In this document: positions 9,873 through 33,835 of the stretch, one piece after another
Numbering within the stretch: the stretch's first letter is position 1
How the letters are laid out: every line of letters begins with the position of its first letter
Virus record (IMG/VR): IMGVR_UViG_3300028883_000537
Span: 1-35,417 of that record
Origin: a virus
DNA: 35,417 bases
Direction: 5' to 3' (one strand)
Position numbers and translations under genes: made by a program
Notes under the pieces: model-generated
Database searches by the model: none
What the model saw: the letters and a program-made list of their open reading frames with translations, nothing else
Told to the model about the DNA's origin: nothing

Positions 9873-9902
9873 TTGTCTTTCACCTTTGTTATATTTAGCA
9901 AT

Positions 9903-10614: not shown

Positions 10615-10923
10615 TTATCTCTGGGCTGAATTGAATAACTTCATGACGAATATACCAATCCCTGCACCAAGCACCACTGCAATAATAGATAGAATTATCT
10701 TGAACACTTGTGTATTGCTCCAAGTTGACATCATACCTATTAATAATAACCCACCAAACATCATAACTAATGGTGCTGGGATATTCATATAGAACATAAA
10801 TATAACTAGACCAATCAATAGTATGAACCCAAACAATGCAAGTGACCCAGTTGCCATTGCACCGCTTTCAGTGAATATGCTTTCTAGAGATTTTGTAGCT
10901 AGTAATGTTAAGTTTAAAATCAT
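10615..10923 (-). CDS. 102-residue three-helix membrane protein
   Basis: Three hydrophobic segments lie at about residues 26-46, 48-65 and 74-94. The start overlaps the previous stop as ATGA, so translation is coupled to the 141-residue protein. Small helical membrane proteins next to the giant surface proteins are candidates for virion membrane components or fibre anchors. No family recognised. Confidence 0.65.
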   Translation of the reverse strand: MILNLTLLATKSLESIFTESGAMATGSLALFGFILLIGLVIFMFYMNIPAPLVMMFGGLLLIGMMSTWSNTQVFKIILSIIAVVLGAGIGIFVMKLFNSAQR

Positions 10924-11345
10924 GGTTTTGCTCCTGTAAACATGCTAACAATGTATGCAGCAAGATAGAATAATGCAACTACTTGGAATATACTAACCAA
11001 TCCAACAAGTAACCAAAGTATTAGCATTGGCAGTCCTATGTTAACAAGTATGGCTGTGTACCCAGCCACAAGCCCAAGTATGAGCTTTTTGAATGTTGAG
11101 TATTTTGAAACACCACTTTTGGCTTCAAATGTAGGTAGCTTATCATAATCATCAGTTGCCTCTGAGCTGCCTACTACTGTGTAATTTATATCTACTACTG
11201 ACTGCTGTGCTGCTAGTTCTCCTGGTGTCTGATCAATAATTTTCATTTTATCAATCCAAGTATCATCAGCTAGACCTAAGCCTAAGGTAACTATATTTAT
11301 TGCAAACAATATCATTGCAGCACCCATGATTGTTTTTAAGTCCAT
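10920..11345 (-). CDS. 141-residue membrane protein with a small exported domain
   Basis: An N-terminal helix (about 7-24) precedes a roughly 60-residue polar segment with an NYT sequon, then two long helices (about 85-107 and 110-134). It lies two bases after the giant surface gene and is coupled to the next one. It may form the membrane base of that surface protein. No family recognised. Confidence 0.65.
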   Translation of the reverse strand: MDLKTIMGAAMILFAINIVTLGLGLADDTWIDKMKIIDQTPGELAAQQSVVDINYTVVGSSEATDDYDKLPTFEAKSGVSKYSTFKKLILGLVAGYTAILVNIGLPMLILWLLVGLVSIFQVVALFYLAAYIVSMFTGAKP

Positions 11346-14300: not shown

Positions 14301-16096
14301 ATCACATTACCAATATTATGGTTACCAGCTGAGTTTATATTATCATCAGTAACATCATATATATTAATTCCGTTCTGGTTGTTAGATAGGAATATATATT
14401 CATTACTACCATCGTTAAAGTAATCCACATTATGGACTGTATCGTTTGTATCTATTCTTGATAAAAAAATAAAGTCATTAGTAGTTGCATTATAATCATA
14501 AATTAAAACACAATTACCATCTATTAAATAATAATATGATGTATTAAGTATTTGAAAATAACTAGTAGGGTGTGTTGTATTATAATCTAACAAATCACCA
14601 GTAGTAAAGCTTGAACTTACTAGTTGTGTTTCAGTACCATCAAGTGAGTTAGTATCATTCACACCAAAGTTATAATCCTCAGTTCTATATAAATAATAAT
14701 TATAATCTATCATCCAATCATAATTAGTATTAGGAAACAAAAAACCTAGCTCATTCTCAGCTGGGTTGGTGATATCAGCATTGTACACATTGTTGCTTAT
14801 TGAAAAATTATCATCAGAGAATATTGTTTCTGATGAAATAAAATTTAAATCATAATAATCTACAACATCTATATTAGTTATATTTTGTGAGTATGATCTA
14901 TCAAACCAACCACCAGCTAGTGATGCACCACTCATAAAAAATATATGTGTATTTGAATATGGGAAAGATGGTGACATATCGTAAACATTCTGAAAAGAAG
15001 CACCATCGCTACCAGCTACAACATAATAATATTGTTGACTTAAACTTAGCGGTGGTGTGAATGTAGCAGTATCACCTACAAAACTTGTAGAATCTAATAA
15101 TGTTCCTGATGTATTATAGACATATACTTTTGTAGCTGTACATAAATTATTTTTATCTATACTTCTAATCATACTATCTTGAACACCAAGAATTTTAACA
15201 CCATTATATGTAGTATTACTACCATAGGTAGCTGATGGATAATTTGAACCAGTTTGAGTAAGAGTTATATATGATTTAATATATTTATTTACATCAACAA
15301 AACTATATATATCAGTGTATGTATTTCCATCTAACTCATGTGGTAATGCAAAATAATTAGTATCAACAGAAACAACATTTAGATATTGGTTCACATCCCA
15401 ATAAATTGGTGTTCCTGTTTCTAAGTTCTGGTCAGTATCTATTCCTAGGCTATATTTATAAACTAATTCTGAATTATAATCTGTGTCTGTGTAATCAAGT
15501 AGCCAATTATAATTATTCCAGTTATCACTTTTCCAATTATCCATTAGCAATTCGCCTTCTGCTAATGTTATACTTGCACCAGTTAGTGAAATTAGAATTG
15601 TTACTGTTGAGATGTCATTAATACTAATATCATTAAACTCAATTTCATTCCAACCAATATTAAGATAAGCCTTATTAGTTCTTTGAACCACATAATTTCC
15701 ATTACTATCTGTTAATCCAAGCTGTGCAGCATAATCAGTGTTATCAATTTTGGCAAGTACAGTGGCATCTTTAATGTATAAATAATAACTTATATCTTTA
15801 CCATATATATCAGAGACATATATATCTTTTTTTTGTGAATAAGAACTTGTACTTGTGCTTGTCTTTATTAAGTTAAGTGATGCATTATTAGTATAAAAGG
15901 TAGTTGTGTTTAAAGACACACTTAAGCCAGACAATGTAGCGTACCATCCATCAATAGTAGTACAATCATCTATAGCACCATCACCAATAACTAAAAGGTC
16001 TGATGGATTTGTAACTGTGTTTGTTGCAGAAACAAACCCACCTATAAATATTGCACTCATTAGTACTAATAATACTAACCAAACTTTGTATTTCAT
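11348..16096 (-). CDS. Giant secreted, membrane-anchored surface or fibre protein
   Basis: About 1582 residues. It has an N-terminal signal peptide (KVWLVLLVLMSAIFIGGFVSA), a very long Tyr/Asp/Asn/Thr-rich beta-type ectodomain, and three to four C-terminal membrane helices in the last 95 residues. The ectodomain has more than 30 NxS/T sequons and repeated modules of the form YDWMIDYNYYLYRTED...NDTNSLDGTE that also occur in the other giant protein. Known spindle-shaped archaeal viruses use very large proteins as terminal fibres for host attachment, and this one is well placed for that role. The ATG at 16096 is preferred over the GTG just before it, but the ribosome-binding site is ambiguous. 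Catalytic motifs were not seen. Confidence 0.82.
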   Translation of the reverse strand: MKYKVWLVLLVLMSAIFIGGFVSATNTVTNPSDLLVIGDGAIDDCTTIDGWYATLSGLSVSLNTTTFYTNNASLNLIKTSTSTSSYSQKKDIYVSDIYGKDISYYLYIKDATVLAKIDNTDYAAQLGLTDSNGNYVVQRTNKAYLNIGWNEIEFNDISINDISTVTILISLTGASITLAEGELLMDNWKSDNWNNYNWLLDYTDTDYNSELVYKYSLGIDTDQNLETGTPIYWDVNQYLNVVSVDTNYFALPHELDGNTYTDIYSFVDVNKYIKSYITLTQTGSNYPSATYGSNTTYNGVKILGVQDSMIRSIDKNNLCTATKVYVYNTSGTLLDSTSFVGDTATFTPPLSLSQQYYYVVAGSDGASFQNVYDMSPSFPYSNTHIFFMSGASLAGGWFDRSYSQNITNIDVVDYYDLNFISSETIFSDDNFSISNNVYNADITNPAENELGFLFPNTNYDWMIDYNYYLYRTEDYNFGVNDTNSLDGTETQLVSSSFTTGDLLDYNTTHPTSYFQILNTSYYYLIDGNCVLIYDYNATTNDFIFLSRIDTNDTVHNVDYFNDGSNEYIFLSNNQNGINIYDVTDDNINSAGNHNIGNVIYSYGADYNCTWLEVFTTPNDLNYIASSQNNWSNGALIFYKIEDLIALDSTVLDGQKGITSAYNSSDIWHDPDVNSFYISYKDYNAVSKILYSYDTDVNVTTTTNKSEAFLDLYEYNDRAFALNLVKDTLSVYDYDTNFVNNFASASTPITTYNIGETTYAMTVNEDQNQVYLQTLDDIISLDYNFISDTISLDTQINVNTDSNYLYQNIIYNSNIITYVEENKINKYKFNDSTFKITTALPDTLTRQALYSYISVDGNTFWSDDTFDVNYSRFTVQFFDENTCDTLDGNVIVYDSTNSQYLPVDENGYMEIWLEDYNITEPITGTVERKVGDTVTHTQRQFNPYLSLFSNHDINMALLPVNEGTYIEFIGKSATDELWSNRYIYAQKINGNNLVLVDESLTSNYTTELVTNNIDGVQFEVLSDVYLNRIYFENDGVIQYTKAYLYDYDTEDLLLELDINTDFDYVALPLLTELTAGKRYSITFDNDGANYRSQYTNGLLSSPVTGTYIEYQNGCANSPTTCISTRGYNLIKLEVFEKCAWDMIQLQPYASLAITDASGLTTMYLDTDGNYQFLYINGTGSVEHIYQMVETTVLKPKDEITLVDISPYDVIVGGLLNISDTNVTDSNITFNMFPGTTQSYSVIISDYNATPLDREYIPRIFELKMPTGSDYESSYILQPYLLTEDDGVVPVIYVVDEFERALPEIDMKIYRYINTNYTLVSQQTTDDTGKVSFSAYPLESYYVQLYYEGTLKNIYKIVPRESTDTFYLILNLIGEDPIANYLIMNVDLNGTEDYYTYGSDIDIGGYIKTNIDVVTGYTLELYQNDMLIDSVVVNETGVMIDIDQTLAGASLDTNYPTADIYLTVNYIIDGDSISKQYKKTIFLQITGSLNLFKILKDIPNDFGHLLSILLAILCTVGLVAGLRLSGMPLDITSSTFLGLFILGIFMFLGWLDTGVVVFGFDTGKFLYILCVLFAFFMMSKRISD

Positions 16097-16110
16097 CACA
16101 TCACATTTAT

Positions 16111-16341
16111 CTATTGTTGACCCCTAACCTTTTTAATATAACTTGCTAACCACATGTACACAACTAATGCTGGTAACAATGCAAATGCAAGATTAATCAA
16201 ACTAATGTATGGTGTGTTATCAGGGAATGGAATTGCAGCAGTGAATGGATTCCATATACTAAAGAATGCATAAAACATAATGTACACACCAATCAAGCTA
16301 AACAGGTCGGTAAAATCAAAACTACCTTTATCATTTTTCAT
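16111..16341 (-). CDS. 76-residue two-helix membrane protein
   Basis: Helices lie at about residues 12-34 and 48-66, with a basic C-terminus (YIKKVRGQQ). The second ATG is preferred because the AAAGGAG site is then eight bases away; the first ATG at 16347 is only two bases from it. It sits between the KPY-repeat protein and the giant surface protein. Function unknown. Confidence 0.6.
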   Translation of the reverse strand: MKNDKGSFDFTDLFSLIGVYIMFYAFFSIWNPFTAAIPFPDNTPYISLINLAFALLPALVVYMWLASYIKKVRGQQ

Positions 16342-16367
16342 GTTCATTTCTCCTTTATAAATAATAT

Positions 16368-19300
16368 TTAATACAATAAATTTAAAACACTTCTTTTTTT
16401 AGTTTTTATTTTCTTTTTTCTTTTGGTCTTTTTTGCATACCAACCTTTAGCAGTAATTCCTTGTAACTCACCTTGGCTATCAATTGCAAATTTTGACTTC
16501 TCAATAAACGCCTCTTTCAATCTTAGTGCTTTTGTCTTTGATGGTTGATAGAATTTATTTAGGTTTTTTGGTAATGACTTTTGTACAATCTTAGCCTTAC
16601 CCTTACCCTTTCTGACTTTGAAGCTTCTTGCTGCTGAGTGGTCTACTGCCCTACCACCTAATTTAATTGCAGAATAAATGTTCCTTTTTTCAGTTGGTTT
16701 ATTTAGTCTTTTCCAGTTACCTTGTGATAATATAAGAGTGTCATATGTGCTCTTAGTATCAACTTTCTTTTTAGGTTTTGGTTCAAGCTTAATTTTTTTA
16801 ACTACTGCTTTTTTCTTTCTTGTTGTGATTGGTGGTCTGTAAAATGGATCACTCAAATATGGCTTATAGCTTGGGGTGCCAACATATGGCTTATAGCTTG
16901 GGGTGCCAACATATGGCTTATAGCTTGGGGTGCCAACATATGGCTTGTAGGTTGGGTCACTCACATATGGCTTACGGCTTGGTTTTCCAACATATGGCTT
17001 ATAGCTTGGGTCTCCTGTATATGGTTTATAGCCTTTAACACCTATATATGGTTTATATGGTTTTTGTTTCTTATATGGCTTAGAAACTGGTAACCTAAAT
17101 GGTTTACCAAATTTATTATAATATATTTTTTTTGCATATCTAACCTTAGGTGCTTTGGATATAGCAGCTGTACCTAGTCCTATAGCTTTAGAAACATCTG
17201 GTAAAGGATCATAAAACTTAACTTTCCTAGATATTTTAGATTCAAATTTATATAGATCTTTAGCTTTTATTTTAGGAACTTGTTTTTTGCCTTTAACTAA
17301 ACCTAATTCTTTATCACTAATTCCTTCAAACATCTTTTTAAGCTTAATCTTTGGTGATTTCTTTGGTGCTTTCCCAACTAAGTCCTTTCCTAACTGCCCA
17401 AGTTCAGCTGAATAAATATTAAGTCTTTTACCACCTATAAGTGTAACACCAATCTTCTTTTTAGGTAATAATCTCTCACCTAAGGTAGCCACAACTTCTA
17501 ATTCACCAGTAGGCATACCAAATGGCTTGAACTTACCAGTTTTCACTTTCTCAAACTTACTATACTTCTCAATAAATCCAGGAGTGAAAGCATCCTTTCC
17601 TAATGCAGCTTTGTATTCTGGGAGTATGTGTTTTGGAATGCCTGAGACTGTTTGTTTTTCAAGCAACACAGCTTGTGGCTTACCTCTTACTTGTGCCTTA
17701 CCTGATAAAAAGTCTAGTAGACTACCTCTCTCCACATCTTCACCTATCCCAAGTCTGCTTACTCTTAGTTGTGGTCTTCCAGTAACCACATCAGGTGGTG
17801 AAGCATAAAATAATTGTTCTCTTAATGATAATGTTTCTCTGCCTTTACCTAATGAAATTGGCTTTTTGGATAGCTTACCAAAAATACCAGTCTCTAACAA
17901 ATCTTGTTGAGCAGTAACTAAATCTAATTCTTTTCCAACAAACTGTGCTTGTTCTCTAAAACTTGCACCAAAGGGTCCTTTTACTTGTTGTCCAGTAAGA
18001 CTAACTTTTTTTCCTGTAATTTGTTGGATATCACCTATTGTTTTTTCAAGTTTAATACCTTTTGAAAATGCAATTGACTTACCACCAAGTCTTGCTCTTG
18101 GGTCTATAACTTTTATACCCTTACCAATATCTATAGTTGGGAACTTGGTTACAAACCCACCTTCACCTTTTGCAAATTCAACCACATCTGCAATATCCTT
18201 ACCGGTCTTTTTTTCAATTATAGTTATTGCAGTTGGTTGCTTTTTTATAACAACTTTTTCTTTACCTAAGGCTTTAATAATTCTATCAACAGTCTTTTCT
18301 CTATCTAAAGATAATACATCAATATCTTTGATGTCCCTAGTAAACTGTGGTTTCAGAACTGATGTCTGTGCATAAGACCCAGCAATCACATCATCAGTAC
18401 CACTTACTGCACCAATAACTTTTTTCAATTCCTTACTTTGTAATTTTGGAATAATTGGTGCTTCTCTCATTGCTTCTTGTACAGCAGAACCATATTCAGA
18501 GACTACTTCTGATGGTTTTACTTCACCAAATTTAAGTGGTTTTCCACCAGCTCTTGCAATGTCTATATCAATTACCTTACCTGAACCTGACTTTACACCT
18601 TTAATTGTTTGTATTCCAAAAGCATCAGTCTTTAATGGAACAAACTTAGGTGATAGTCTAGTCACCCCAGCTTTGGCCAACTGGAATCCTTTCACTCCAG
18701 CTTCAAACCCAACTAACTCAGCGGTAGTAAGCAACACCTTTGCAAGTTCATACTTCTTGCCTGGTAGTTGGTATTCCCTTTTAATCATCTTCAGACCAGT
18801 TTCTTTTGGTGGTTTTTTAATACCTTTTTTTAGTTGAAACCAATCCTTACTTACCTCACCACCAATTGCACCTATGTCTGATTTAACTAACCCAATTATC
18901 TTTTCCCCTCTTTCTATCTTTCTTTTTTCTCCAGTAACAAGAAGCTCAGTACCTAGTCTAAATGGGTCTTCTTTTACTTTAGTCACTTCCTTTTTTATTC
19001 TTGTACTTACACCAACCAAGGTTTCCTCAACCTGTTTACCTCTCTTGCCTTCAATCTTTAATAATGAAAAAGGAGATAGTATGGCTGTAGGTATTTTTGG
19101 TTTTATTGATTTCACCTTTTCAACTATTGGTGAATATCTACCTTTAGCTTCTAAGCCAATTTCTTTTAGCAAAGTAGTTTTTGGTATCATTGATACTCTT
19201 TTAGAAGCAACAGCAGAAACTAATTTCCTTTCTGGTTTAGTTAGTGGTTTAGTAGTAATTGCACCAAACATTGTCTTTCTCATCTCTGGCTTATCCACAG

Positions 19301-19817
19301 GTTTAACCTCAGGCTTGACATCCTCATAAACAGTTGGGGCTTTATAGTTAGTAAATATTTTTTGTCTTAATGCAACTTCTTTCTGCACCTTAGCTGGTGC
19401 TTTCTCTAAAGTTGTCTTTTTAAAAATAGTAGGCTCTGCCTTTTTACCAATAGTAGATACAAATGATTTACCACCTCTAATTGTGGTAAACAATTCTTTA
19501 ACATCTTTAGATGTACTTACATCTATGTGTGGTACTGACTTACCAGTTTTTTGATCAATAGTATATTTCTCACCAGTTGGTTTCTCGTAAATCCTAGCAC
19601 CTTGTGTTGTAGTTCCAACTAATTTTGGTGCTGTGGGTGTAGAAACAGAGCTACTTGTAGATTTTTTAGAAACAGAGCTACTTGTAGATTTTTTAGAAAC
19701 AGATTTTGGCTTTGAATCAGTATATACAACAGTAGCACCTTTATACTTAGATAATATGGATTTGCCAACACTTGTCTTAGCAAACTTACTACTAATTCTT
19801 ACAACTCTTCTAGCCAT
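16368..19817 (-). CDS. Large basic KPY-repeat protein with a nucleotidyltransferase-like domain
   Basis: 1149 residues, highly basic, no signal peptide or clear membrane span. The ATG at 19817 follows AGGTGTGTCTG, better than the in-frame GTG at 19826. The N-terminus has two KKSTSSSVS units. Around residues 470-560 AGSYAQ, KDIDVL and IADVVEF match the Gly-Ser, DxD and third-Asp layout of the MNT nucleotidyltransferase fold. From about 920 to 995 run eight 9-residue units of YKPYVGTPS type. A basic, structured tail follows (KRKKKIKTKKRS). It heads a unit ending in the giant surface gene. Internal virion or DNA-associated protein is likely; enzymatic activity is speculative, since the Gly-Ser to DxD spacing is longer than usual. 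Confidence 0.75.
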   Translation of the reverse strand: MARRVVRISSKFAKTSVGKSILSKYKGATVVYTDSKPKSVSKKSTSSSVSKKSTSSSVSTPTAPKLVGTTTQGARIYEKPTGEKYTIDQKTGKSVPHIDVSTSKDVKELFTTIRGGKSFVSTIGKKAEPTIFKKTTLEKAPAKVQKEVALRQKIFTNYKAPTVYEDVKPEVKPVDKPEMRKTMFGAITTKPLTKPERKLVSAVASKRVSMIPKTTLLKEIGLEAKGRYSPIVEKVKSIKPKIPTAILSPFSLLKIEGKRGKQVEETLVGVSTRIKKEVTKVKEDPFRLGTELLVTGEKRKIERGEKIIGLVKSDIGAIGGEVSKDWFQLKKGIKKPPKETGLKMIKREYQLPGKKYELAKVLLTTAELVGFEAGVKGFQLAKAGVTRLSPKFVPLKTDAFGIQTIKGVKSGSGKVIDIDIARAGGKPLKFGEVKPSEVVSEYGSAVQEAMREAPIIPKLQSKELKKVIGAVSGTDDVIAGSYAQTSVLKPQFTRDIKDIDVLSLDREKTVDRIIKALGKEKVVIKKQPTAITIIEKKTGKDIADVVEFAKGEGGFVTKFPTIDIGKGIKVIDPRARLGGKSIAFSKGIKLEKTIGDIQQITGKKVSLTGQQVKGPFGASFREQAQFVGKELDLVTAQQDLLETGIFGKLSKKPISLGKGRETLSLREQLFYASPPDVVTGRPQLRVSRLGIGEDVERGSLLDFLSGKAQVRGKPQAVLLEKQTVSGIPKHILPEYKAALGKDAFTPGFIEKYSKFEKVKTGKFKPFGMPTGELEVVATLGERLLPKKKIGVTLIGGKRLNIYSAELGQLGKDLVGKAPKKSPKIKLKKMFEGISDKELGLVKGKKQVPKIKAKDLYKFESKISRKVKFYDPLPDVSKAIGLGTAAISKAPKVRYAKKIYYNKFGKPFRLPVSKPYKKQKPYKPYIGVKGYKPYTGDPSYKPYVGKPSRKPYVSDPTYKPYVGTPSYKPYVGTPSYKPYVGTPSYKPYLSDPFYRPPITTRKKKAVVKKIKLEPKPKKKVDTKSTYDTLILSQGNWKRLNKPTEKRNIYSAIKLGGRAVDHSAARSFKVRKGKGKAKIVQKSLPKNLNKFYQPSKTKALRLKEAFIEKSKFAIDSQGELQGITAKGWYAKKTKRKKKIKTKKRSVLNLLY
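16842..17057 (-). repeat. Eight tandem 27-base units coding YKPYVGTPS
   Basis: The stretch is exactly eight in-frame 27-base units. The three central units are identical in protein and nearly so in DNA, while the outer ones have drifted (YKPYTGDPS, RKPYVSDPT, YKPYLSDPF). This points to recent unit expansion. Pro/Tyr-rich repeats make extended, adhesive or flexible spacers. Confidence 0.92.
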
Positions 19818-19850
19818 CAGACACACCTATAAATAATAATCCCTGTCATT

Positions 19851-19910: not shown

Positions 19911-20555
19911 TTATCTCACATGCCCAAAAGTATTTATATTGGCTCTAATAATTTCTTCTAGCCTATTATCAGAAGTGATTTCCTCATAGGCAACATAGTA
20001 TTCAGAACCGAATTTATTTAAAAAGTCCTTGTGACTCATTGCACGACCGCTTACTGGATCAATATATATCTTTATATAACCTAACATATGCCCTAGTTCT
20101 TTATACTTATTATCTATTCTTATTGGGGTAAATTCATAACCCTGCAGCTCAATAATTTCCTCAAAAGCCAGGGACTGATGCACACAGTTATTAGTTTGTA
20201 GGTTATAATCATTGTCTTTATAGAACTTATTTAGCACATTTAAATAATTCATGTCCTGCAATAAATAGTCTACCCTATGTAGATTTTGGAGGCAAATAGT
20301 ATATTCATAATTCAGGTCATCAGCAACCCTGAGTGATATATCATATTTAGTAATCAAATCATAATACGCTAATTTAGTGCTTTTGATGTCCTCGCTAATA
20401 TTATTAAGTGCTTTATTTTTATTATCTAAAGTTGTGTTATATTTATCAACTAACAAGTTATAATCATTAATGGTGTTAAACAACATTATTGAAAGAAACA
20501 ATGTTATTGCACCTAATGTGCATACTATAATTTTTTCCAATTTTATTTTACCCAT
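19911..20555 (-). CDS. Membrane-anchored protein with a transglutaminase-like Cys-His-Asp domain
   Basis: 214 residues from the ATG at 20555, chosen because GAGGATGA lies just upstream and the gene then overlaps the integrase end by 8 bases. A membrane helix (about 9-27) is followed by a coiled-coil stretch to about residue 105. The C-terminal domain has NNCVHQS (Cys124), GHMLGYIKIYID (His156) and DPVSG (Asp166). That order and the trailing DPxxG are typical of transglutaminase- or papain-like enzymes. If active and outside the cell, it could cut or remodel cell-surface protein links during entry or exit. The domain is short, and the match is by motif only. Confidence 0.6.
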   Translation of the reverse strand: MGKIKLEKIIVCTLGAITLFLSIMLFNTINDYNLLVDKYNTTLDNKNKALNNISEDIKSTKLAYYDLITKYDISLRVADDLNYEYTICLQNLHRVDYLLQDMNYLNVLNKFYKDNDYNLQTNNCVHQSLAFEEIIELQGYEFTPIRIDNKYKELGHMLGYIKIYIDPVSGRAMSHKDFLNKFGSEYYVAYEEITSDNRLEEIIRANINTFGHVR

Positions 20556-21213
20556 ACAACTCATCCTCAATATTTTTGGTAGATAGCTCAATGTAAGAAT
20601 CAAGATGATTAATGTTAGTGTGTCCAGCTATCTTCTGTACTACCTTAACATTTTTCTGTTCATCCACAATTAGATTCTGTAACCTCAAATGCCTAAACCC
20701 ATGTGGATTAATGTTTAGATATTTAGTGCAATAGTAATATACTATCTCTCTTGTAAGATTGCCAAAGAGCAAATCTGTTTCCTTGAATTTCCTATTCCTA
20801 ATTGCTTTCTTAACTTTAGCCAGATAATTAATAATAGGAATTGTAAGTTGATAGTCTTTGTTCTTAAGCTTGTCAAAGGATATAGGGTATCTTTTGATAA
20901 CATTCTTACTGTTTGGATTTCGCTTCAGGTTCTGCAGAGTCACAATCAAAACTAATCTTTCCTTATCATACTGGAAATCATTGAACTTAATTAAAAGACC
21001 CTCACTTATTCTGCAACCTGTGACCGCTAAAAGACACACTAATGCACTGAATTGGGTTACCCTAAACTCAGAAATATTACAATCTCTCATTAAGTCAGGT
21101 ATGTTTATAATTTTATTCCTAACATCATTCCAGTTAAACTTATACACATTACTTGTATTAATAAATGCCTTACTATGTTTAACTTTACCTGTTACTTTGT
21201 CATAGAAATACAC
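20548..21213 (-). CDS. Tyrosine recombinase (integrase)
   Basis: The 221-residue protein shows the catalytic set: Arg68 in TGCRISEG, HGFRHLR giving His171 and Arg174, GHT giving His198, and Tyr207 in SYIEL. Lys97 may be the conserved beta-hairpin lysine. It is short, with only about 45 residues before the catalytic core, so the arm-binding domain is minimal. It starts at a GTG after TAGGTAGGTGAG. The catalytic frame is intact, unlike SSV1-type integrases after integration. Function: site-specific integration of the circular element into a host chromosome, or resolution of multimers. I found no attachment site by eye. Confidence 0.92.
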   Translation of the reverse strand: MYFYDKVTGKVKHSKAFINTSNVYKFNWNDVRNKIINIPDLMRDCNISEFRVTQFSALVCLLAVTGCRISEGLLIKFNDFQYDKERLVLIVTLQNLKRNPNSKNVIKRYPISFDKLKNKDYQLTIPIINYLAKVKKAIRNRKFKETDLLFGNLTREIVYYYCTKYLNINPHGFRHLRLQNLIVDEQKNVKVVQKIAGHTNINHLDSYIELSTKNIEDELYG

Positions 21214-21531: not shown

Positions 21532-22575
21532 TCATTCGGTAAAAATATCTTCATACTTTTTTGTCAAATTAGCTTCTTTATTTATGCGTTTGGACACTGT
21601 CTTTCTATGGTCTTTATTAACTTTTTGCTTATTATTGTACTCACGCTTTAGCAGGGTAGCTTTGGTTACAGTCATGGTTGGAAATTTTTCAATCAATTTG
21701 GAGATAAGCACCCTACCTTTTGGGTTTAGATAAAATTCTTTATTTTTTTCTATCTCTTTGATATAATCACTAATTGTCATGTTCTGTTCCTTATCCTTAG
21801 TATCCATTAGACTATCAGCAAATTCATCAAGTATATGGTCTTGGTAGTCTTTCTTTGCTCGTTCATAGTTTCTAATTAGCTGTCTAAAGTCCTTTCGATG
21901 AAGTGGTAAGTATAATCTACTATTTGCTATTTTAATCATTTTGTAGATGTCTTTATCTTCTGATACCTTCTTAATATAGTGTGGATACACCCGTCTTATA
22001 TACTTATCAAATTTATTGATGGAATCTGCTTTTTTAGGGTGAATCACATACTCAAAAGAAAAATTACTAAAATCTTGACTTGGGGCAACACCTTTAAATT
22101 GGAAAGACCCAAAACTAAGTCTTCTTATTTCTGCAGACAACTGGGTTTCAGAGGGTAAATTAAAAAAAATAATTTGTCTTTTAGACCTAATAAGAGACAT
22201 TGTTTTCCCTAAAATTTTGGTTTCCTTCTTAAATGATTCTTTTGAGTTGGCATCAATTTCTAATTCTTCAAAATCAAGAGCTTCACCTATATGATTTGGC
22301 TTTTTAACTTTTTTTATAAAGTCTAATGGGTTGAAAACAATAGAGTGCTCATCAAATCTGTGTTCATCAGTTTTTTTATCAACATCAAGACACCAGCCAA
22401 AAAAAACATCACCCCAGGACTTCCCTGAACCAGTGTCCCCAAAAGTGATGGTGAAGGTATTATTATTAGATAGATTAGGTCGTCTCCACATTTCATAAAA
22501 TAAAACTTGTTGTATACCTTGAGCATATTTAATTGTATATGGTATCTTTAGTTTCTCATATAATAAATTCTTCAT
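21532..22575 (-). CDS. Zot/HerA-like packaging-type P-loop ATPase
   Basis: 347 residues. Walker A is GDTGSGKS at 46-53, an acidic strand LDFEELEID at about 100-108 is the Walker B candidate, and RQIIFFNLP (about 133-141) looks like the sensor strand. The later part is helical and basic, with a possible helix-turn-helix near the C-terminus. ATPases of this type drive DNA into virions or across membranes in many archaeal viruses and mobile elements. The start overlaps the previous stop as ATGA. It closes the operon that begins with the LamG protein, which supports a virion assembly role. Conjugative transfer is an alternative, but no other transfer genes are seen. Confidence 0.75.
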   Translation of the reverse strand: MKNLLYEKLKIPYTIKYAQGIQQVLFYEMWRRPNLSNNNTFTITFGDTGSGKSWGDVFFGWCLDVDKKTDEHRFDEHSIVFNPLDFIKKVKKPNHIGEALDFEELEIDANSKESFKKETKILGKTMSLIRSKRQIIFFNLPSETQLSAEIRRLSFGSFQFKGVAPSQDFSNFSFEYVIHPKKADSINKFDKYIRRVYPHYIKKVSEDKDIYKMIKIANSRLYLPLHRKDFRQLIRNYERAKKDYQDHILDEFADSLMDTKDKEQNMTISDYIKEIEKNKEFYLNPKGRVLISKLIEKFPTMTVTKATLLKREYNNKQKVNKDHRKTVSKRINKEANLTKKYEDIFTE

Positions 22576-25168: not shown

Positions 25169-28100
25169 TCATATCCATTCATAATCTTTCTTGAAAAGTA
25201 TCCAAAAGAATATGAAAGTACCAAACAACAATGGGATTAACCCAAATATCCATTTAATTAAATCATTTTCATTGGTTATGTTATAATAATCCTCAGTGGC
25301 GTAATAATTATCACCTAAGCCCAAGGATATATGGTCTAGTATATATCTTTCGCCATTCACATCAATTGCACAGGTAAGATAAACAGGCATAGTCTTTCTA
25401 TCCACCCATACCTTAATATTAAACTGATCTTCATTGACATAAAATGTTTGGTTTCTGGCAGACTCAATCCCACCACCAATCACAGTCACTTGTACATCAT
25501 CTGAGCCATTAGGTAACAAGACCTGATAGGTACAGAAACCTGCTTGAACAATCAAGTCACCGTCATCACAGGAATTGGTTGGTAATAAACACCTAATCAG
25601 TCTAAGTTCAAACATATCAGCTGACCACATGCTGGTGGTGTCAACATACACATTCTCATCATATAAAGCAATGGAAACATAACTGTACCAGTTATTGTTC
25701 ACATAGTTACCATCAATGTCTGTGTTAATATCAAAACCAACTGGTGCAGCAAGGTTCATGTCTAAATTCTGGTCAATCAAGATGGCATGTTGGTTACCAT
25801 CTAAAATCGCAACATTATTTATTCCAAAGTTCCAATCATAACTTCTATTCTCATCATAAGTGTGATCAACCACAGTGAAGTCCCAAGAATAACCCCAAAC
25901 ATAGTTCTGGTAGGCATATAGTATTGGTTGTGGGTTAGTTAGAACACCCTCTAGGTTATTATATACTGGAAATGAACTTGAGCTCCAGGATGTGTTAGTA
26001 TCTGATAAATAACCATCCACATATAGTTTAGTTGTCACAAAGCTGTATAGGTGTTTGCCTACATCACTGAACTCAAAACCAGTGGCTAAATTATAGTCAT
26101 AGTTATTAGAATCAACAGGGATAATTGTGTTAGCAAAAACATATTCTTCATTCCCATCAAATGAATCAGTATAGTTAAATCCAAAAGACATTCTATAAAC
26201 CCTATTCTCATCATACAGTTCATCTTGGACATTGCAGATCCAATTATAGTCTTTATATGTGTAAATTGTCTCTGATGGGTTGGTAATTGTGTTGCTTGTG
26301 GTGTACATTATAAAAATGTCATCTGACCAGTATGTGCTGGTCTGTCGTGAGTTCGCATTATCGTACCAATCTAGATTGAAGAAGGAATAGTATGCTGTGT
26401 TATAGTTCAGGTCATGTGTGTTAAAGTCCTGACTGAACTGCTTCCATGTGATTTGGTTATAATCTAAATAATCTAAGTTAGTTAGTCTATCCTGTTCATC
26501 CTGTGATAATAAATCTGAATAATATCTCATGTTCTGTTTTTGGTTGTTAGTATCATCCACTAAGAAGGTATAATTATAATCACCAATGTTGAAGACTAGT
26601 GAGTCATAATTAACATCATTCTGGTAATAATAGTTTGTGTCAGTTGAATAAGTGAACCACCAGCTATTCACATCTGCTTGGATCAAAGCAGGAGCAAGTG
26701 GTTGTGCCAGGTTGGTCTCTGCGTTGTTATGGTAGTTTCCTGATAGGTTGGTTAGTGTCCGCTCTAGCCAAGAATCATAATCCTGGGTGTACTCAGCTGG
26801 TATTTTCTGTGGAATATAAGTCATACTTGTGTCTGTCCCATTATAATCATTTCCAGAAAGATCATTTGAGTCACTAATTAATGGATAATAAGCTAAAAGA
26901 TTAGTATCCCAGTTATTATACTGCCATTCCTGTTGTATATCAGTCGGTGTTAGTATACCTTCTACAACTTTAAGGTGTCTAATTTCACCATCGAAGGTTC
27001 TTATTTGGTCATTATTATTCCCAATTATAACATTAGTTGTTCCATCTACTGGAGTTCCTGAGTTTTGGTCAGCAGAGCCGCTTAAAGCTGGTGCTGTGTC
27101 TAAATCACCAATATAGAAATTAGCAGTTCCATCTGCTTCTCTTGTTATTGAAACAAATTTCCATTGGTTTAAAGAAATTGAATTTCCACCACTTACAACA
27201 AAGGTATTCCCTCCATCTGAACTAAATTGTAAATACTTTAATAAATTTATTCTAAAAATTATTTTATCATTATATAAAATAGCACCTACACCATTCTCCC
27301 CAAAACTATAAGGATTAATCCAACCCATAATAGTCACAGCTTTAGTTCCAATCATGTCAGTGCCTGTGTCTACCTTACTATCAGCACCATCAAACAAGGC
27401 AGATCCGTCCTGATAGAATCCATCTTCAAAGTTATAATGGAAGGTGTCCTGTGTGCTTGTGTTCCAGAAGATGTCTGAATTAGAATCAGGTATTTCGTAA
27501 ATTGTGAAATTAGTGATATCCACAGATTCATTAGCATCTGATAATTCTAGAACTATATTAGTATTAATATTATTATTAATAGTTGTAATATATGACCCAG
27601 ATTCTGAAAATGTATTATCAGACCATGCAGAAGCACCACCTGGTCTTATAGTAATTGTTCCTGATGATATTAAAAAATTTAAAGTTATTAAATAATCTTT
27701 ACCAATATTATCTTCTTTAATCCAATCAGAATAGGATCCATATATTCTACCATCTACTGCTGTTGATTCAAAATTTGTATCTGAATTAATTATTGAATCT
27801 ATAGTAGACCATTCTTCAAAATTATAATCTTCTACAAAATCTGTTGAATAATCCACATAGCTACCGAAGTTAATTTGGGCATGGTTCTTGTTCCCAGTCA
27901 CATCAAACAAGGTGTTCCCTGTTCCTTCAGCTACTGGTAGCCAAGTAAGTAAAGTATCAACAGAGTCATAAATCTTGATATTATAAATTGTTCCTTGTCC
28001 AGGGGTATCTAAAAATGTAATTGCATTATTATCAATGTTTAAATCAGCAACTGCAGTTCCTTCATAGGTCATGTAGTTCCAGTCTGTATTATCTAAAAAG

Positions 28101-29683
28101 GTGATATTGCTATCATCCCAGACTGTTCCTGCATATGAATTAGATAATTCAATATCGTACTTGACCCTACCTGTGTAGTTTAGGTCAGAGCCAAGAACAT
28201 CCTTGGTTGGATTGGACTCGTCCCTTGGGATGAACACATTCCCGTCCTCTGAGTATCCGTACTGGTTCTGCCAACTGAAGATGGGCTGGGTGTTGAAGAA
28301 TGGTACTTCTATTATTATTAAATTTGATATAGTGTAGTCTGTAGTTGTTGATGAATTCTGGAAATATAATACACCTCTTGTTGTAGCAGTAGCAGTTAGA
28401 ATATACGAATTTATTCCATTTATAGCAGTTGTTGAATTACTACTTGGTCCAGATATAAGTGTCTCTCTTAACCCAAAAGTTGGAGCAGTTCCAGAATTTA
28501 ATGTTAAATCAAATTCAACCAAATATTTTTTTGTATCAACAATAGATATTTGGTCTACTGTTCCAGCAACCTTATTTCCAGAAGCATCACTCGTTGCACT
28601 AAATCCATATCTTCCATTAGAAATAAATGTTGTATATGGAATAGTTCCATCGTTAACTAAATTGCTAGTCTGTAGTGTGTCTTGATTCCAGTTCAAGCCA
28701 TTTGCATTAGTTATTGTCCCGTCATAGCCATTCCCTGAAGAATCATAAGCTGTTGTACCTGAATCCTCATCCATTTTGTATTGTGCTAATAAATCTATGG
28801 TTGGGTCATTATTTTCAGGCTGACCATGATTATAAACCTCAGTTATTTGGTTCAAGTCAAGAATGCCTTCATATACCCTTATATCAAACATTTCTCCATC
28901 AAAAGATCTTGATGTCCCATTATTATTTCCAATTATAACATTAGTTATTCCTGCTACTGGCACTCCTGAGTTTTGATCAGCAGAACCACTTAAGGCTGGT
29001 GCTGTGTCTAGATCACCAATATAGAAATTAGCAGTTCCATCTGCTTCTCTTGTTATTGAAACAAATTTCCATTGGTTTAGTGAGATTGAACCTATTGCAG
29101 AAGTTGTTCCTGTTGAATCATCTGATTTTAGTGTTAGTCTTGTTGAACCACCAGAGATATAAAAATAAAATTTACCATTATCTAATATTCTCCCAACAGT
29201 CCCTTCTCCCCACCCATAAGGTTTAATCCAACCCATAACAGTCACAGCTTTAGTTCCAATCATGTCAGTGCCAGTGTCTACCAAGTCATCCACACCATCA
29301 AAGTTATAGGACTTTCCCTCCTGGACTGGTCTGTTGCTGTCACCAGCCCTATCACCAGTCTGGGTCAGTTCTCTTGGGTCAAAAACCCATTGGAGTAAGC
29401 CCTCATCACGATCAGTCACATTGTTATCAAGCTCGTTATTAATGAAATAGGTTTCAGAGCCATCAAAGGAGTTAGTATCATTATACCCAATGGAATAGAC
29501 ATAGTCAAGCTCGGAGTTGTAATCTGCATCAATGAAGTTCCAGACCCAGGTATAATTAGTATCAATAAAAATTGGTAAAGCAGGGGACTCAATGTTCCCA
29601 TCATATGCCAACAAGCCAGGCAGGAATAGAATTGCAGCAATAATAACTAGAACTAATAAAAATATCTTCTTCTTAAGCTTCAT
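25169..29683 (-). CDS. Giant LamG-domain surface or fibre protein
   Basis: 1504 residues from the ATG at 29683, which overlaps the previous stop as TAATG; the in-frame GTG at 29692 lies in the ribosome-binding site. It has a signal peptide (KIFLLVLVIIAAILFLPGLLA) and a final membrane helix (LIKWIFGLIPLLFGTFIFFW) with a short cytoplasmic end. Two LamG/concanavalin-A-like domains lie at about 124-285 and 760-920, each with FDG-x-DS/D, the VMGWI or IMGWI strand and SLNQWKFVSITREADG. The C-terminal third repeats YxWxxDF...YDENRxYxxxFG modules. LamG-type folds occur in large proteins of Pyrococcus and Thermococcus spindle-shaped viruses. Likely role: carbohydrate or host-surface binding. Confidence 0.85.
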   Translation of the reverse strand: MKLKKKIFLLVLVIIAAILFLPGLLAYDGNIESPALPIFIDTNYTWVWNFIDADYNSELDYVYSIGYNDTNSFDGSETYFINNELDNNVTDRDEGLLQWVFDPRELTQTGDRAGDSNRPVQEGKSYNFDGVDDLVDTGTDMIGTKAVTVMGWIKPYGWGEGTVGRILDNGKFYFYISGGSTRLTLKSDDSTGTTSAIGSISLNQWKFVSITREADGTANFYIGDLDTAPALSGSADQNSGVPVAGITNVIIGNNNGTSRSFDGEMFDIRVYEGILDLNQITEVYNHGQPENNDPTIDLLAQYKMDEDSGTTAYDSSGNGYDGTITNANGLNWNQDTLQTSNLVNDGTIPYTTFISNGRYGFSATSDASGNKVAGTVDQISIVDTKKYLVEFDLTLNSGTAPTFGLRETLISGPSSNSTTAINGINSYILTATATTRGVLYFQNSSTTTDYTISNLIIIEVPFFNTQPIFSWQNQYGYSEDGNVFIPRDESNPTKDVLGSDLNYTGRVKYDIELSNSYAGTVWDDSNITFLDNTDWNYMTYEGTAVADLNIDNNAITFLDTPGQGTIYNIKIYDSVDTLLTWLPVAEGTGNTLFDVTGNKNHAQINFGSYVDYSTDFVEDYNFEEWSTIDSIINSDTNFESTAVDGRIYGSYSDWIKEDNIGKDYLITLNFLISSGTITIRPGGASAWSDNTFSESGSYITTINNNINTNIVLELSDANESVDITNFTIYEIPDSNSDIFWNTSTQDTFHYNFEDGFYQDGSALFDGADSKVDTGTDMIGTKAVTIMGWINPYSFGENGVGAILYNDKIIFRINLLKYLQFSSDGGNTFVVSGGNSISLNQWKFVSITREADGTANFYIGDLDTAPALSGSADQNSGTPVDGTTNVIIGNNNDQIRTFDGEIRHLKVVEGILTPTDIQQEWQYNNWDTNLLAYYPLISDSNDLSGNDYNGTDTSMTYIPQKIPAEYTQDYDSWLERTLTNLSGNYHNNAETNLAQPLAPALIQADVNSWWFTYSTDTNYYYQNDVNYDSLVFNIGDYNYTFLVDDTNNQKQNMRYYSDLLSQDEQDRLTNLDYLDYNQITWKQFSQDFNTHDLNYNTAYYSFFNLDWYDNANSRQTSTYWSDDIFIMYTTSNTITNPSETIYTYKDYNWICNVQDELYDENRVYRMSFGFNYTDSFDGNEEYVFANTIIPVDSNNYDYNLATGFEFSDVGKHLYSFVTTKLYVDGYLSDTNTSWSSSSFPVYNNLEGVLTNPQPILYAYQNYVWGYSWDFTVVDHTYDENRSYDWNFGINNVAILDGNQHAILIDQNLDMNLAAPVGFDINTDIDGNYVNNNWYSYVSIALYDENVYVDTTSMWSADMFELRLIRCLLPTNSCDDGDLIVQAGFCTYQVLLPNGSDDVQVTVIGGGIESARNQTFYVNEDQFNIKVWVDRKTMPVYLTCAIDVNGERYILDHISLGLGDNYYATEDYYNITNENDLIKWIFGLIPLLFGTFIFFWILFKKDYEWI
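27011..27171 (-). repeat. LamG core repeat, DNA copy 1 (second domain)
   Basis: This 161-base block matches the block 1910 bases away without gaps. Its last 68 bases are identical in both copies. The flanking parts of the two LamG domains are more diverged. Confidence 0.9.
28921..29081 (-). repeat. LamG core repeat, DNA copy 2 (first domain)
   Basis: Partner of the block in the second LamG domain. Near-identity at the DNA level in one patch of an otherwise diverged pair suggests recent duplication or gene conversion. Confidence 0.9.
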
Positions 29684-29850
29684 TAAAACCACCCTATTGG
29701 TATGTCAATGCCAGAGCCTAAAATAGTTATACCCATTGCAACAAGCAACAAAGCTGCAACCTGGATATATAATTTCTTACTAAAAGCAGTTCCTATCTTT
29801 AAGAAAAATGCGATGCTGACAATATATATAATAAATAAATACCAAATCAT
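29683..29850 (-). CDS. 55-residue two-helix membrane protein
   Basis: It begins after TAAGGTGAAGAA. Two hydrophobic helices (about 2-20 and 31-48) are separated by a short basic loop (KKLYIQ). The stop overlaps the start of the LamG giant, so the two are translationally coupled. Two short helices in so small a protein also fit a minor capsid or pilin-like virion protein. No family recognised. Confidence 0.65.
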   Translation of the reverse strand: MIWYLFIIYIVSIAFFLKIGTAFSKKLYIQVAALLLVAMGITILGSGIDIPIGWF

Positions 29851-29876: not shown

Positions 29877-29930
29877 ATTATATATTTGTGAAATTATAAA
29901 TAAATTATGCACACAAATATTTTTAAATAC
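29877..29930 (-). promoter_or_regulatory. Shared 54-base promoter module, copy 2
   Basis: Partner of the module upstream of the KPY-repeat gene. It contains the same TTTAAAAATATTTGTGTG block, an ATAATTTAT core and a distal AAATATATAAT. It drives the LamG-to-ATPase operon. Confidence 0.75.
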
Positions 29931-29949: not shown

Positions 29950-29983
29950 AAAAAAGAAATAGAAAAGGAGTAGATGCTACTCC
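29950..29983 (-). terminator. Hairpin and T-tract terminator after the capsid-like gene
   Basis: On the minus strand GGAGTAG, a three-base loop and CTACTCC form a 7-base-pair stem. It is followed at once by TTTT and, a few bases later, seven more T. It lies about 20 bases after the stop and separates this gene from the LamG operon. Confidence 0.75.
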
Positions 29984-30003: not shown

Positions 30004-30228
30004 TCATGCTCTCTTGAAAGTTAGAACAGACACTAGAATGAAAACAATTCCGCCAACAGCTAAAATACCACCCATTAGGTCAGTGAAAACTTTTTCCATT
30101 GAACCAGCAGTTAGGTTAGCTGCAACATTAACTTTGGTTATAACAAGAACACCAATAGTTGTCATTATACCACCAAACATTGCACCCATTATGTTTGCAA
30201 CTTGTCCGTTTTCGTTTTTGAATAACAT
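30004..30228 (-). CDS. Putative capsid or pilin-like protein with class III signal peptide
   Basis: The 74-residue protein begins MLFKNENGQVANIMGAMFGG. A short charged leader, then Gly8-Gln9 before a hydrophobic helix, is the archaeal class III (type IV pilin-like) processing pattern, with cleavage predicted after Gly8. Two helices (about 10-32 and 49-70) are joined by a polar loop with an NLT sequon. Two-helix proteins of this size are the capsid proteins of spindle-shaped archaeal viruses. Expression signals are strong: its own promoter, GGGTGATGTA ribosome-binding site, a leader hairpin and a terminator. The adjacent A24 peptidase gene fits as its processing enzyme. A surface pilus subunit is the alternative. 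Confidence 0.68.
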   Translation of the reverse strand: MLFKNENGQVANIMGAMFGGIMTTIGVLVITKVNVAANLTAGSMEKVFTDLMGGILAVGGIVFILVSVLTFKRA

Positions 30229-30248
30229 TACATCACCCTTAAAATTTT

Positions 30249-30268
30249 TAGTATTTTTGTAAATACTA
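30249..30268 (-). promoter_or_regulatory. Leader hairpin or operator of the capsid-like gene
   Basis: Perfect 8-base arms TAGTATTT and AAATACTA flank four bases. The predicted transcript start near 30270 would put this hairpin at the very 5' end of the mRNA, where it could protect it. As DNA it could also be an operator. Confidence 0.65.
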
Positions 30269-30283
30269 TAACTAATCTATATC

Positions 30284-30305
30284 TTTATTTATATTTAAAT
30301 ACCAC
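30284..30305 (-). promoter_or_regulatory. Promoter of the capsid-like gene
   Basis: The element GTGGTA followed by TTTAAATATAAATAAA is shared, with one difference in 22 bases, with the promoter of the basic-protein unit. It predicts a leader of about 40 bases. Confidence 0.65.
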
Positions 30306-30309
30306 ACAT

Positions 30310-30816
30310 TTAGAAAAAAAGAGCTAAAACTACTGCAACCAATAAATAAACACCGTACTTAACACTTACCTGGTTGATTCTTGTGTCTAATATCTTATTA
30401 AAACTAGTCTCCTTCTTAACAAAGGTATTAAGATAGAACCAAATGGCTTTCTGGAATAAATTGACAATCACTATAACAAGCATACTATACAAAAGCACTT
30501 TTAAAAAAAATATATTAGTAAGCCAACCAGCATAGAAAGGCATTAGAGAAATCACAGACAATAAAGCCATTGCGTCACCACCACCTATATAGTCTATCTT
30601 AACAAACAACCATAGTGGGAAATATAAAACAACTAGACTACCTAAAATAAACAAAAAGCTCTCTAAACTGAACTCAATCAAGCTAAGAACCAAACCACTA
30701 ATTAGCATTGGATAAGTAACCCAGTTGTATATCTTGCCATGGAGTTGGTCTGTTCTGGCAATAATAATACAACCAATTACTAGTATTAGTATTCTAATCA
30801 TTGTAATTAGTTCCAT
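30310..30816 (-). CDS. A24-family prepilin/preflagellin peptidase
   Basis: 168 residues with about six membrane helices. The two catalytic aspartates of this family are visible: Asp23 in ARTDQLHGKIYNW, matching the D-x(5)-I/P-N motif, and Asp81 in the GxGD motif as IGGGDA. Such enzymes cleave class III signal peptides of archaeal pilins and archaellins on the cytoplasmic side of the membrane. The length is close to small archaeal members (FlaK/EppA-like). It lies just upstream of a gene whose product has a matching signal, so that product is the likely substrate. The ATG at 30801 is a possible alternative start. The TATA box is positioned for a nearly leaderless transcript. Confidence 0.85.
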   Translation of the reverse strand: MELITMIRILILVIGCIIIARTDQLHGKIYNWVTYPMLISGLVLSLIEFSLESFLFILGSLVVLYFPLWLFVKIDYIGGGDAMALLSVISLMPFYAGWLTNIFFLKVLLYSMLVIVIVNLFQKAIWFYLNTFVKKETSFNKILDTRINQVSVKYGVYLLVAVVLALFF

Positions 30817-30836: not shown

Positions 30837-30857
30837 ATACCCCTATAAAAGGGGTAT
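30837..30857. promoter_or_regulatory. Palindrome centred on the peptidase TATA box
   Basis: The 8-base arms ATACCCCT and AGGGGTAT enclose ATAAA. On the minus strand the centre reads CTTTTATAGG, the likely TATA box of the A24 gene. A repressor binding here would directly block TBP. Confidence 0.75.
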
Positions 30858-30954: not shown

Positions 30955-31021
30955 TATTAAGGGATAAACCAAAAATACTAGAGGTTACTTAGCATGGTAA
31001 AAACCAATTTATCCCTTAATA
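30955..31021. repeat. Long inverted repeat, candidate replication origin
   Basis: Perfect 14-base arms (TATTAAGGGATAAA and its complement) enclose 39 bases. The structure lies in the roughly 445-base gene-free region between the two divergent arms, just upstream of the replication genes. Such stem-loops mark origins in many plasmids and archaeal viruses. A terminator or insertion remnant is less likely, as there is no transposase. Confidence 0.75.
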
Positions 31022-31413: not shown

Positions 31414-33006
31414 ATGGATATTGATGCAATTAAAAAAGAAATAGAATTAAAAAATAATAAATCTACAACAAAATTTAATTTAGACATATCAAATTTAAAT
31501 AATTTTGATTTAATAAATAAAGAACTATTTTTGAAAGCACCACTATTTTATGATGAATATAAAATATGGTGGGCATGGGATGAGAAAAAAGGATTGTGGA
31601 ATCAAATTGATGAAACAAGTATTTATATTAAATTTAATAATGTTTTTAATTTGGTAGCTGAAAAATCACCTTTCATATCAAGTGTGAAAGCAACTGTTTT
31701 TAATGCCTTAAAAGAGGCAGGAAGAAGATACAAAGAAAATTATCTTAAAGATATTAAAAAAACATGGGTTGCATTTAAAGATTGTTTTTATGATATTGAA
31801 GATCAAAAGGTTATTGATAAAGATAAAACTTATTTTTGTAATAATGTTATACCTTATAATTATAAAAATATAACTTGTACAGATACACCTACAATTGATA
31901 AATATTTTAAAGATTGGGTTGGGAATACTAAAGATGGTAAAGATTGGAGTCAAACCTTATGGGAGATTATGGCTTACTGTATATTACCAGATTATCCTTT
32001 GGATTTTTGTTTTGCGTTAGTTGGAACAGGTTCAAATGGTAAATCAACTTTTTTAAATTTTTTAATAAAATTTATTGATTTTGGAAACTGTACCACATCT
32101 GATTTTGATTTATTAACAACTAATAGATTTGAGTGTGGTAGATTATATAAAAAATTAGTTTGCCTTATGGGTGAAATTGATGACACAGTTTTTTCAAAAA
32201 CTGCTTTGTTTAAAAGATTATTAGGGAAAGATATGCTAAGAGGTGAATATAAAAATAAAACACCTTTTGACTTTTTTAATTACGCTAAATTAATAATTGC
32301 AACTAACACCTTACCTATGACCACTGATAAGACAAAAGGATTTTATAGAAGGTGGATTGTAATTGATTTTCCTTATGAATTTGATACTAGAAATGGAGAT
32401 GTTTTAAAACAAATCCCAGAAGAAGAATTTGAAAGATTACCACTTAAATTAATTAATATTTTAAAAGAAATATTTAAAAATAAAGCATTTACTAATCAAG
32501 GTACTGTTGAAGATAGAATGAACAGATATGAATCAAAAGCAAATCCAGTTAATTCATTTCTTAAAGAATATTGTGAAAAAGATATTAATGGATATATACC
32601 AGTCTTTGAATTTTATGATACAATATCACCTTATTTAGACAATAAAGGTTATAAACATTTAAGCAAATTACAAATTAGTAAAATTATGAAAGATATGGGA
32701 TTTGAATCAGAAGTTAAAAGATTAACAATTAAAAATGAAAATAAAAGTTGGAGATGTTATAGTGGTATTAAATGGATAGGTAAATTAGAATATAATTATA
32801 ATAATGAAGATAATATATTTGAATCAATTGAAATTAAAAATATAGATGAAAAAGAAAAAATCACATTTGATGAACTTATTAAAAAATTAAATATTGAATC
32901 TAAAAGTATTGAAGACCAAAAAGAATTTATTAAAAAATTAAAAAAACAAGGTGTTATTGCAGAAGTAAGATATGGTGAATATATTTTAATTGGTGGTATG
33001 GTATGA
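31414..33006 (+). CDS. D5-like SF3 helicase (phage/plasmid primase C-terminal family)
   Basis: 530 residues. Walker A GTGSNGKST lies at 204-212, Walker B LVCLMGEID at about 248-256, and the SF3 motif C/sensor as IIATNTLP at 294-301, followed by FYRRWIVIDFP. This is the P4/D5 family of viral replicative helicases. The N-terminal 190 residues resemble the D5_N linker and show no primase motif, so primase activity is not supported. The C-terminus (about 455-530) looks like a winged helix. It would unwind DNA at the nearby origin. The ribosome-binding site is weak (AGTGATATT). Codons are extremely rich in A and T. Confidence 0.92.
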   Translation: MDIDAIKKEIELKNNKSTTKFNLDISNLNNFDLINKELFLKAPLFYDEYKIWWAWDEKKGLWNQIDETSIYIKFNNVFNLVAEKSPFISSVKATVFNALKEAGRRYKENYLKDIKKTWVAFKDCFYDIEDQKVIDKDKTYFCNNVIPYNYKNITCTDTPTIDKYFKDWVGNTKDGKDWSQTLWEIMAYCILPDYPLDFCFALVGTGSNGKSTFLNFLIKFIDFGNCTTSDFDLLTTNRFECGRLYKKLVCLMGEIDDTVFSKTALFKRLLGKDMLRGEYKNKTPFDFFNYAKLIIATNTLPMTTDKTKGFYRRWIVIDFPYEFDTRNGDVLKQIPEEEFERLPLKLINILKEIFKNKAFTNQGTVEDRMNRYESKANPVNSFLKEYCEKDINGYIPVFEFYDTISPYLDNKGYKHLSKLQISKIMKDMGFESEVKRLTIKNENKSWRCYSGIKWIGKLEYNYNNEDNIFESIEIKNIDEKEKITFDELIKKLNIESKSIEDQKEFIKKLKKQGVIAEVRYGEYILIGGMV

Positions 33007-33515: not shown

Positions 33516-33835
33516 AAAATAAAAAAGTTGAAAAAGTTAAAATAAATTGGATATTAATAGTTTGCTTTCTTATGGCCTTAGCTCTGGTTTTCACATTTCC
33601 ATTTGTAGGTAATGCCTTTAAAAACAATTTTGATGAAAATGTTAAAAAAGATTGCATTATATTTAGCAATTTAGGTTATGATACAAACTTATATTATGAT
33701 GATAAAATATATTATCCATTTAATACTGGTTATTTACATTGTAAAATCAAGTATAAAGAACACTGGTATGATTATTATGATATGGATGAGGTACTTTATT
33801 ATGATAAAAGAAATTTAAGGAGTGATAAGAAATGA
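33512..33835 (+). CDS. Single-span membrane protein, C-GYD-C family, copy C
   Basis: A basic N-terminus (KNKKVEKVKIN) and a helix at about 13-34 precede an exported Tyr-rich domain with C-x(5)-LGYDTNLYYD, YYP and YLHCKI. It matches the 4567 protein in motif order and spacing. It overlaps both neighbours by 4 bases, linking zinc-finger and epimerase genes. Function unknown. Confidence 0.68.
   Translation: MKNKKVEKVKINWILIVCFLMALALVFTFPFVGNAFKNNFDENVKKDCIIFSNLGYDTNLYYDDKIYYPFNTGYLHCKIKYKEHWYDYYDMDEVLYYDKRNLRSDKK

Follow-up and report, generated by a model that had tools for sequence, protein, structure and literature searches.

Does a virus carry its own prepilin-type peptidase to mature its coat protein? 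The question is raised by two neighboring genes in IMG/VR virus record IMGVR_UViG_3300028883_000537, which was analyzed over its entire length of 35,417 nt (hereafter the window). A preliminary description had placed an A24 peptidase with both catalytic aspartates directly upstream of a 74-residue two-helix protein, which was said to start with a class III signal, to resemble the capsid proteins of spindle-shaped viruses and to have strong expression signals. Indeed, both open reading frames lie at this place on the minus strand, the peptidase gene upstream and the gene for the two-helix protein 81 bp downstream of it (Table 1). Our answer is a reading that we hold with about even confidence: the hairpin capsid proteins of spindle viruses may undergo prepilin-like maturation, carried out by host PibD in fuselloviruses and, in the window virus, by an A24 peptidase that the virus itself encodes.

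Table 1 Features of the window discussed in the text; positions count from the first nucleotide of the window.
Feature	Position	Strand	Description and basis
Two small membrane proteins	10615..11345	-	141 and 102 aa; follow adhesin 2, order as in LSV-48N
Second adhesin	11348..16099	-	1583 aa; hydrophobic C-terminal segments
78-aa protein	16111..16347	-	Two hydrophobic segments; leader MNMKNDKG/SFDFTDL, same leader type as the 74-aa protein
Basic protein	16368..19826	-	1152 aa; heads the adhesin-2 block; positional counterpart of the LSV-48N 824-aa charged protein
Tyrosine integrase	20548..21213	-	PF00589, 41.6 bits
P-loop ATPase	21532..22575	-	Spindle-virus (His1/LSV-48N) DnaA-like family; pairwise E=3e-9 to LSV-48N
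First adhesin	25169..29692	-	1507 aa; signal peptide, two ConA-like Laminin_G_3 domains, C-terminal TM
55-aa membrane protein	29683..29850	-	First gene of the adhesin-1 operon
Terminator-like hairpin	29967..29983	-	GGAGTAG-CAT-CTACTCC and T-run, just past the 74-aa gene
74-aa protein	30004..30228	-	Two-helix hairpin membrane protein; candidate major capsid protein and candidate peptidase substrate
Leader of 74-aa protein	30205..30228	-	8 residues, MLFKNENG; predicted cleavage before Gln9
TATA-like element	30286..30299	-	TTTAAATATAAATA, upstream of the 74-aa gene
A24 (GxGD) prepilin-type peptidase	30310..30816	-	168 aa; Pfam PF01478, alignments, hydropathy
D5-type primase-helicase	31414..33006	+	Replication; PF19263 and PF08706; phrog_864, 5.5e-53

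The virus that carries this pair is probably archaeal and spindle-shaped. A 126-bp sequence is repeated exactly at both ends of the window (23-148 and 35292-35417), with identity extending beyond it except for one base difference in an A-run, and the 35-kb genome is thus apparently complete and circular. Its products include those by which we judged membership among spindle viruses, namely a conserved DnaA-like AAA/P-loop ATPase, large membrane-anchored adhesins (a class that is ConA-like in some spindle-virus families) and a small protein with two hydrophobic helices and a short loop, the 74-aa protein. The integrase fits such a virus as well. In Thermococcales spindle-shaped viruses, ConA-lectin proteins with membrane helices are among the core genes (PMC12934983). 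Among the 50,697 phage records searched, the ATPase matched only its homolog in LSV-48N, a lemon-shaped virus of Haloferax. Both ATPases also match phrog_5484 (E=0.0019 for the window protein), the family to which the His1 ATPase (gp16) belongs. Additionally, the window and LSV-48N have in common the order of a long charged protein, a 2-TM protein, an adhesin, an SP/TM protein and a 3-TM protein; unlike the window virus, LSV-48N has no A24 peptidase, and the small membrane proteins of the two viruses lack detectable homology. His1 likewise has no A24 peptidase and differs further in its linear genome with PolB, although its 73-aa capsid protein VP21 is also a hairpin.

Among the genes scanned, profile searches recognized neither a terminase nor a portal or HK97 protein, and no tailed-phage genes. 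The Shine-Dalgarno motif GGTG precedes 17 of 35 starts (1.9 expected) and GTGA 21 of 35 (1.8 expected), and this usage and the TATA-like elements look archaeal. The best matches of the primase, integrase and epimerase are bacterial or phage-type, and a search of genome contigs with the epimerase returned bacterial matches only. This epimerase, which is NAD-dependent, two glycosyltransferases and a weak PMT_2-like membrane protein make up a set of viral glycan-modification genes (226-1266, 2788-3864, 33832-34797 and 7963-9099). A row of small Lys/Arg-rich proteins (9124-10361) possibly represents DNA-binding virion proteins. The two giant adhesins contain common repeat-like segments (DYNSELxYxYSxG), which suggests that they are paralogous. 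Each of the two adhesin blocks starts with the same 18-bp promoter-like element, TTTAAAAATATTTGTGTG (29910-29927 and 19884-19901, minus strand), which is a candidate late promoter; the sequences behind its two copies are also similar. In the divergent intergenic region beside the D5 primase-helicase gene, a perfect 14-bp inverted repeat (TATTAAGGGATAAA and TTTATCCCTTAATA, 39 bp apart; 30955-31021) is a candidate origin or operator.

The peptidase scored 35.1 bits against PF01478, above the gathering cut-off of 26.5, and the same result was obtained from a six-frame search. In alignments with A24 relatives and with FlaK (3s0x), D23 in ARTDQ and D81 in IGGGD (G78-G-G-D81) fall on the catalytic aspartates, as the preliminary description had proposed, and the hydropathy profile fits six membrane helices. 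Searching the PDB with the single sequence matched no A24 structure, the sequence being too divergent; a single-sequence structure model was poor (pLDDT 63), and a fold search with this poor model gave no match. PDB matches to PPR proteins were rejected as false because they stem from an IPDVLT segment. The protein resembles PibD, FlaK and EppA in its Pfam A24 family, in the FlaK-like spacing of its catalytic Asp pair and in being a polytopic membrane protein, whereas it is virus-encoded and has only 168 residues (237 in the FlaK chain). Judged by its sequence, it is a genuine member of the A24 family with an intact active site. Directly upstream of its start codon, a hairpin with an 8-bp stem and a T-run (30837-30857) is a possible attenuator that would hold the peptidase low.

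The 74-aa protein begins MLF-KNENGQVANIMG and reads MLFKNENG/QVANIMG, in which the slash marks the predicted cut. It thus has an 8-residue leader that ends in Gly8 (position -1) and is followed immediately by a hydrophobic helix, features also found in archaeal type IV pilins and other class III proteins. These parts of the proposed class III signal stood, while the strict motif did not. Against the FlaFind 1.2 tetrad, [KRDE][GA][ALIFQMVED][ILMVTAS] (PMC4307647), NG/QV fits three of the four positions, and the tetrad fails because Asn is disallowed at -2. Moreover, the leader contains acidic and Asn residues and is not basic overall. The signal is best called near-canonical and, taken alone, would carry little weight. 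Type IV pilins also differ from the 74-aa protein in having one helix and a globular head rather than two membrane helices, and we recognized no pilus machinery in the window genome.

The leader motif K-N-[DE]-x-G has only two copies among all predicted proteins of the window (10,829 aa). Both copies occupy residues 4-8 of small proteins with two hydrophobic segments encoded in structural regions; the second is the 78-aa protein, whose gene sits between the basic-protein gene and the second-adhesin gene. Shuffling of N-termini yielded a second copy with P of 0.004 when membrane proteins were considered and of 0.0125 for all proteins, values that are indicative only because the motif was defined after the sequences had been seen. 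The 78-aa protein is possibly a second substrate of the peptidase or a second capsid protein.

The departures of the 74-aa leader from the strict FlaFind motif bear on the possibility of coincidence, in which an acquired cargo peptidase happens to lie beside an unprocessed hairpin protein with a leader-like N-terminus. The unmet FlaFind tetrad and the acidic and Asn residues of the leader would fit such an accident, as would the failure to find relatives that would show conservation. Searches of IMG/VR with the peptidase, the 74-aa protein, the ATPase, the primase, a DNA pattern for the A24 catalytic motifs and alignments returned no relatives of the window virus, which is weak evidence of absence because pattern-based scans detect mainly close relatives. 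Matches to the catalytic-motif DNA pattern were frame noise or unrelated proteins, not A24, and the peptidase had no tblastn match among phages and plasmids. In contrast, the active site has stayed intact in a divergent A24 protein, and the leader motif is common to two proteins of the window. We therefore consider coincidence very unlikely.

Structure prediction (AF2, single sequence, pLDDT 80) gave the 74-aa protein helices at residues 6-41 and 44-73 with a short loop between them, near which lies an Asn-Leu-Thr, an Asn-x-Thr sequon as in VP1 of SSV1. A fold search with this two-helix model produced weak, unspecific matches only and was uninformative. The protein matched no family in Pfam or PHROG profile searches, and neither VP1_VP3 (PF06281) nor His1_capsid (PF25665) was matched in Pfam at E<1. 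Profile homology to VP1/VP3 was rejected, the hhalign probability being 1% and within the range of shuffles. A 166-aa protein of LSV-48N that appeared to be a look-alike by eye did no better than shuffles. Alignment with His1 VP21 gave z=2.9 against shuffles. The proposed likeness to spindle-virus capsid proteins thus holds for topology and the loop sequon, and not for profile similarity. The gene itself bears the expression signals that had been described: the TATA-like element, a GGTGAT Shine-Dalgarno sequence upstream and a terminator of hairpin and T-run.

The lack of capsid homology by profile is in keeping with the possibility that the 74-aa and 78-aa proteins are cleaved by the viral peptidase but serve as minor membrane or pilin-like proteins, for instance in a fibre or an egress structure, leaving the shell to other small membrane proteins such as those of 102 and 141 aa. 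However, neither an ATPase for pilus assembly nor a platform protein was recognized among the window genes, stand-alone expression signals such as those of the 74-aa gene are typical for a major structural gene, and the protein forms a hairpin with a VP1-like Asn-x-Thr loop. We regard a minor, non-capsid role as rather unlikely, and a hairpin capsid protein as a plausible identity of the 74-aa protein.

The strongest support for prepilin-like maturation of coat hairpins comes from outside the window. VP1 of SSV1 is made as a precursor whose mature N-terminus is Glu66, and its protease has been described as unknown; the five residues ahead of Glu66 are essential, and viruses with E66A and E66Q are viable (PMC5748691). 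The mapped cut is TKG/EATNIG. We read this site in SSV1 and in 17 other fusellovirus genes (n=18, several of them closely related; L003 (SSV1; 12780), L005-L016 and L077-L084). Position -1 is Gly or Ala and position -2 Lys or Arg in 18 of 18, position -3 is variable, and the first helix begins at the new N-terminus. In several precursors (SSV2, SSV7, SSV19, SSV22, SSV15 and SSV8), the leaders are basic and just 9-16 residues long. VP1 of L083, an uncultivated contig, keeps Lys-Gly but has another residue in place of the Glu that was supposed to be universal (KG/TGNINVG). VP1s with Ala at +2 (SSV1, 8, 9, 11 and 15) match the full FlaFind tetrad, and those with Gly at +2 fail at this position alone. 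Read in this way, the fusellovirus VP1 maturation site is an archaeal class III pattern of the PibD type, and a prepilin-type enzyme would be expected to give the results seen with the five-residue deletion and the E66 mutants.

Fusellovirus VP1 (Pfam VP1_VP3) and the 74-aa protein are both short, two-helix and hydrophobic, with a small residue at -1 and an Asn-x-Thr loop sequon, and the VP1 precursor is cut directly before its first helix, where the site in the 74-aa protein is also predicted. KNENG/QVANIMG and KLTKG/EATNIGV of SSV1 VP1 have Lys -5, Gly -1, Asn +4 and Ile +5 in common, positions that were picked after both sequences had been seen. The two differ in that VP1 has Lys or Arg at -2 instead of Asn, and homology between them is undetectable. 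An A24 peptidase gene was absent from all seven spindle viruses that were tested and from four additional fusellovirus contigs.

In S. islandicus with disrupted pibD, SSV9 adsorbs and yields no virus, and viral DNA is not replicated in the delta-pibD strain (PMC7217056). The lack of viral DNA replication points to a block ahead of assembly. Loss of pilins, the explanation given by the authors, suffices for the result, which is thus no more than compatible with PibD as the VP1 protease.

The viral enzyme might instead have another role: it could act on host pilins or archaellins and alter the cell surface, whether to modify receptors, to exclude superinfection or to help a host that has little peptidase of its own, and the position of its gene next to the 74-aa gene would be incidental. 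Pili play a part in the entry of SSV and SIRV (PMC7217056), archaeal PibD processes many different host proteins (PMC4858521), and the viral leaders depart from the strict FlaFind motif; furthermore, the promoter-like element and terminator of the 74-aa gene mean that co-regulation with the peptidase is not needed. Such a role is harder to reconcile with a Gly-ending leader and following hydrophobic helix in two small viral membrane proteins and nowhere else in the virus, and with a peptidase gene directly upstream of one of the two leader-bearing genes, that of the 74-aa protein. On balance we think action on host proteins unlikely, though worth keeping in mind.

Under the favored prepilin-like maturation of the coat, the two-helix hydrophobic coat proteins (the 74-aa protein and probably the 78-aa protein too) would be synthesized as precursors carrying an 8-residue leader whose last residue is Gly and would insert into the host membrane such that the leader faces the cytoplasm. 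The viral A24 peptidase would then cut off the leader at the membrane face, at G8/Q9 in the 74-aa protein and at G8/S9 in the 78-aa protein, so that, as when pilins mature, the hydrophobic helix would come to lie at the new N-terminus. Once the leader is gone, the first helix may be free to move out of the bilayer, and the mature hairpins would exit into the growing virion lattice instead of a pilus. In fuselloviruses, host PibD would be the protease that frees Glu66 of SSV1 VP1. We extend this, with a confidence just short of even, to spindle-shaped archaeal viruses as a group: they would mature their coat hairpins by the class III pathway with PibD as the VP1 protease, and the window virus would have brought its own GxGD peptidase.

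A viral prepilin-type peptidase beside a coat-like hairpin, together with the invariant PibD-type pattern of VP1, names a candidate for the SSV1 VP1 protease, and the delta-pibD strains of Sulfolobus already available allow a direct test of this role of PibD. In the literature searched, which had the SSV19 and SMV1 structure papers outside its scope, we found no proposal that PibD is the VP1 protease, nor one that pairs a prepilin peptidase encoded by a virus with a capsid protein. We know of no precedent for a GxGD intramembrane aspartyl peptidase as a virion maturation protease. If the proposal is true, this class of enzymes would join the virion maturation proteases. Capsid and pilus assembly would then be linked through a common maturation step, with capsid assembly borrowing the first step of the pilus pathway.
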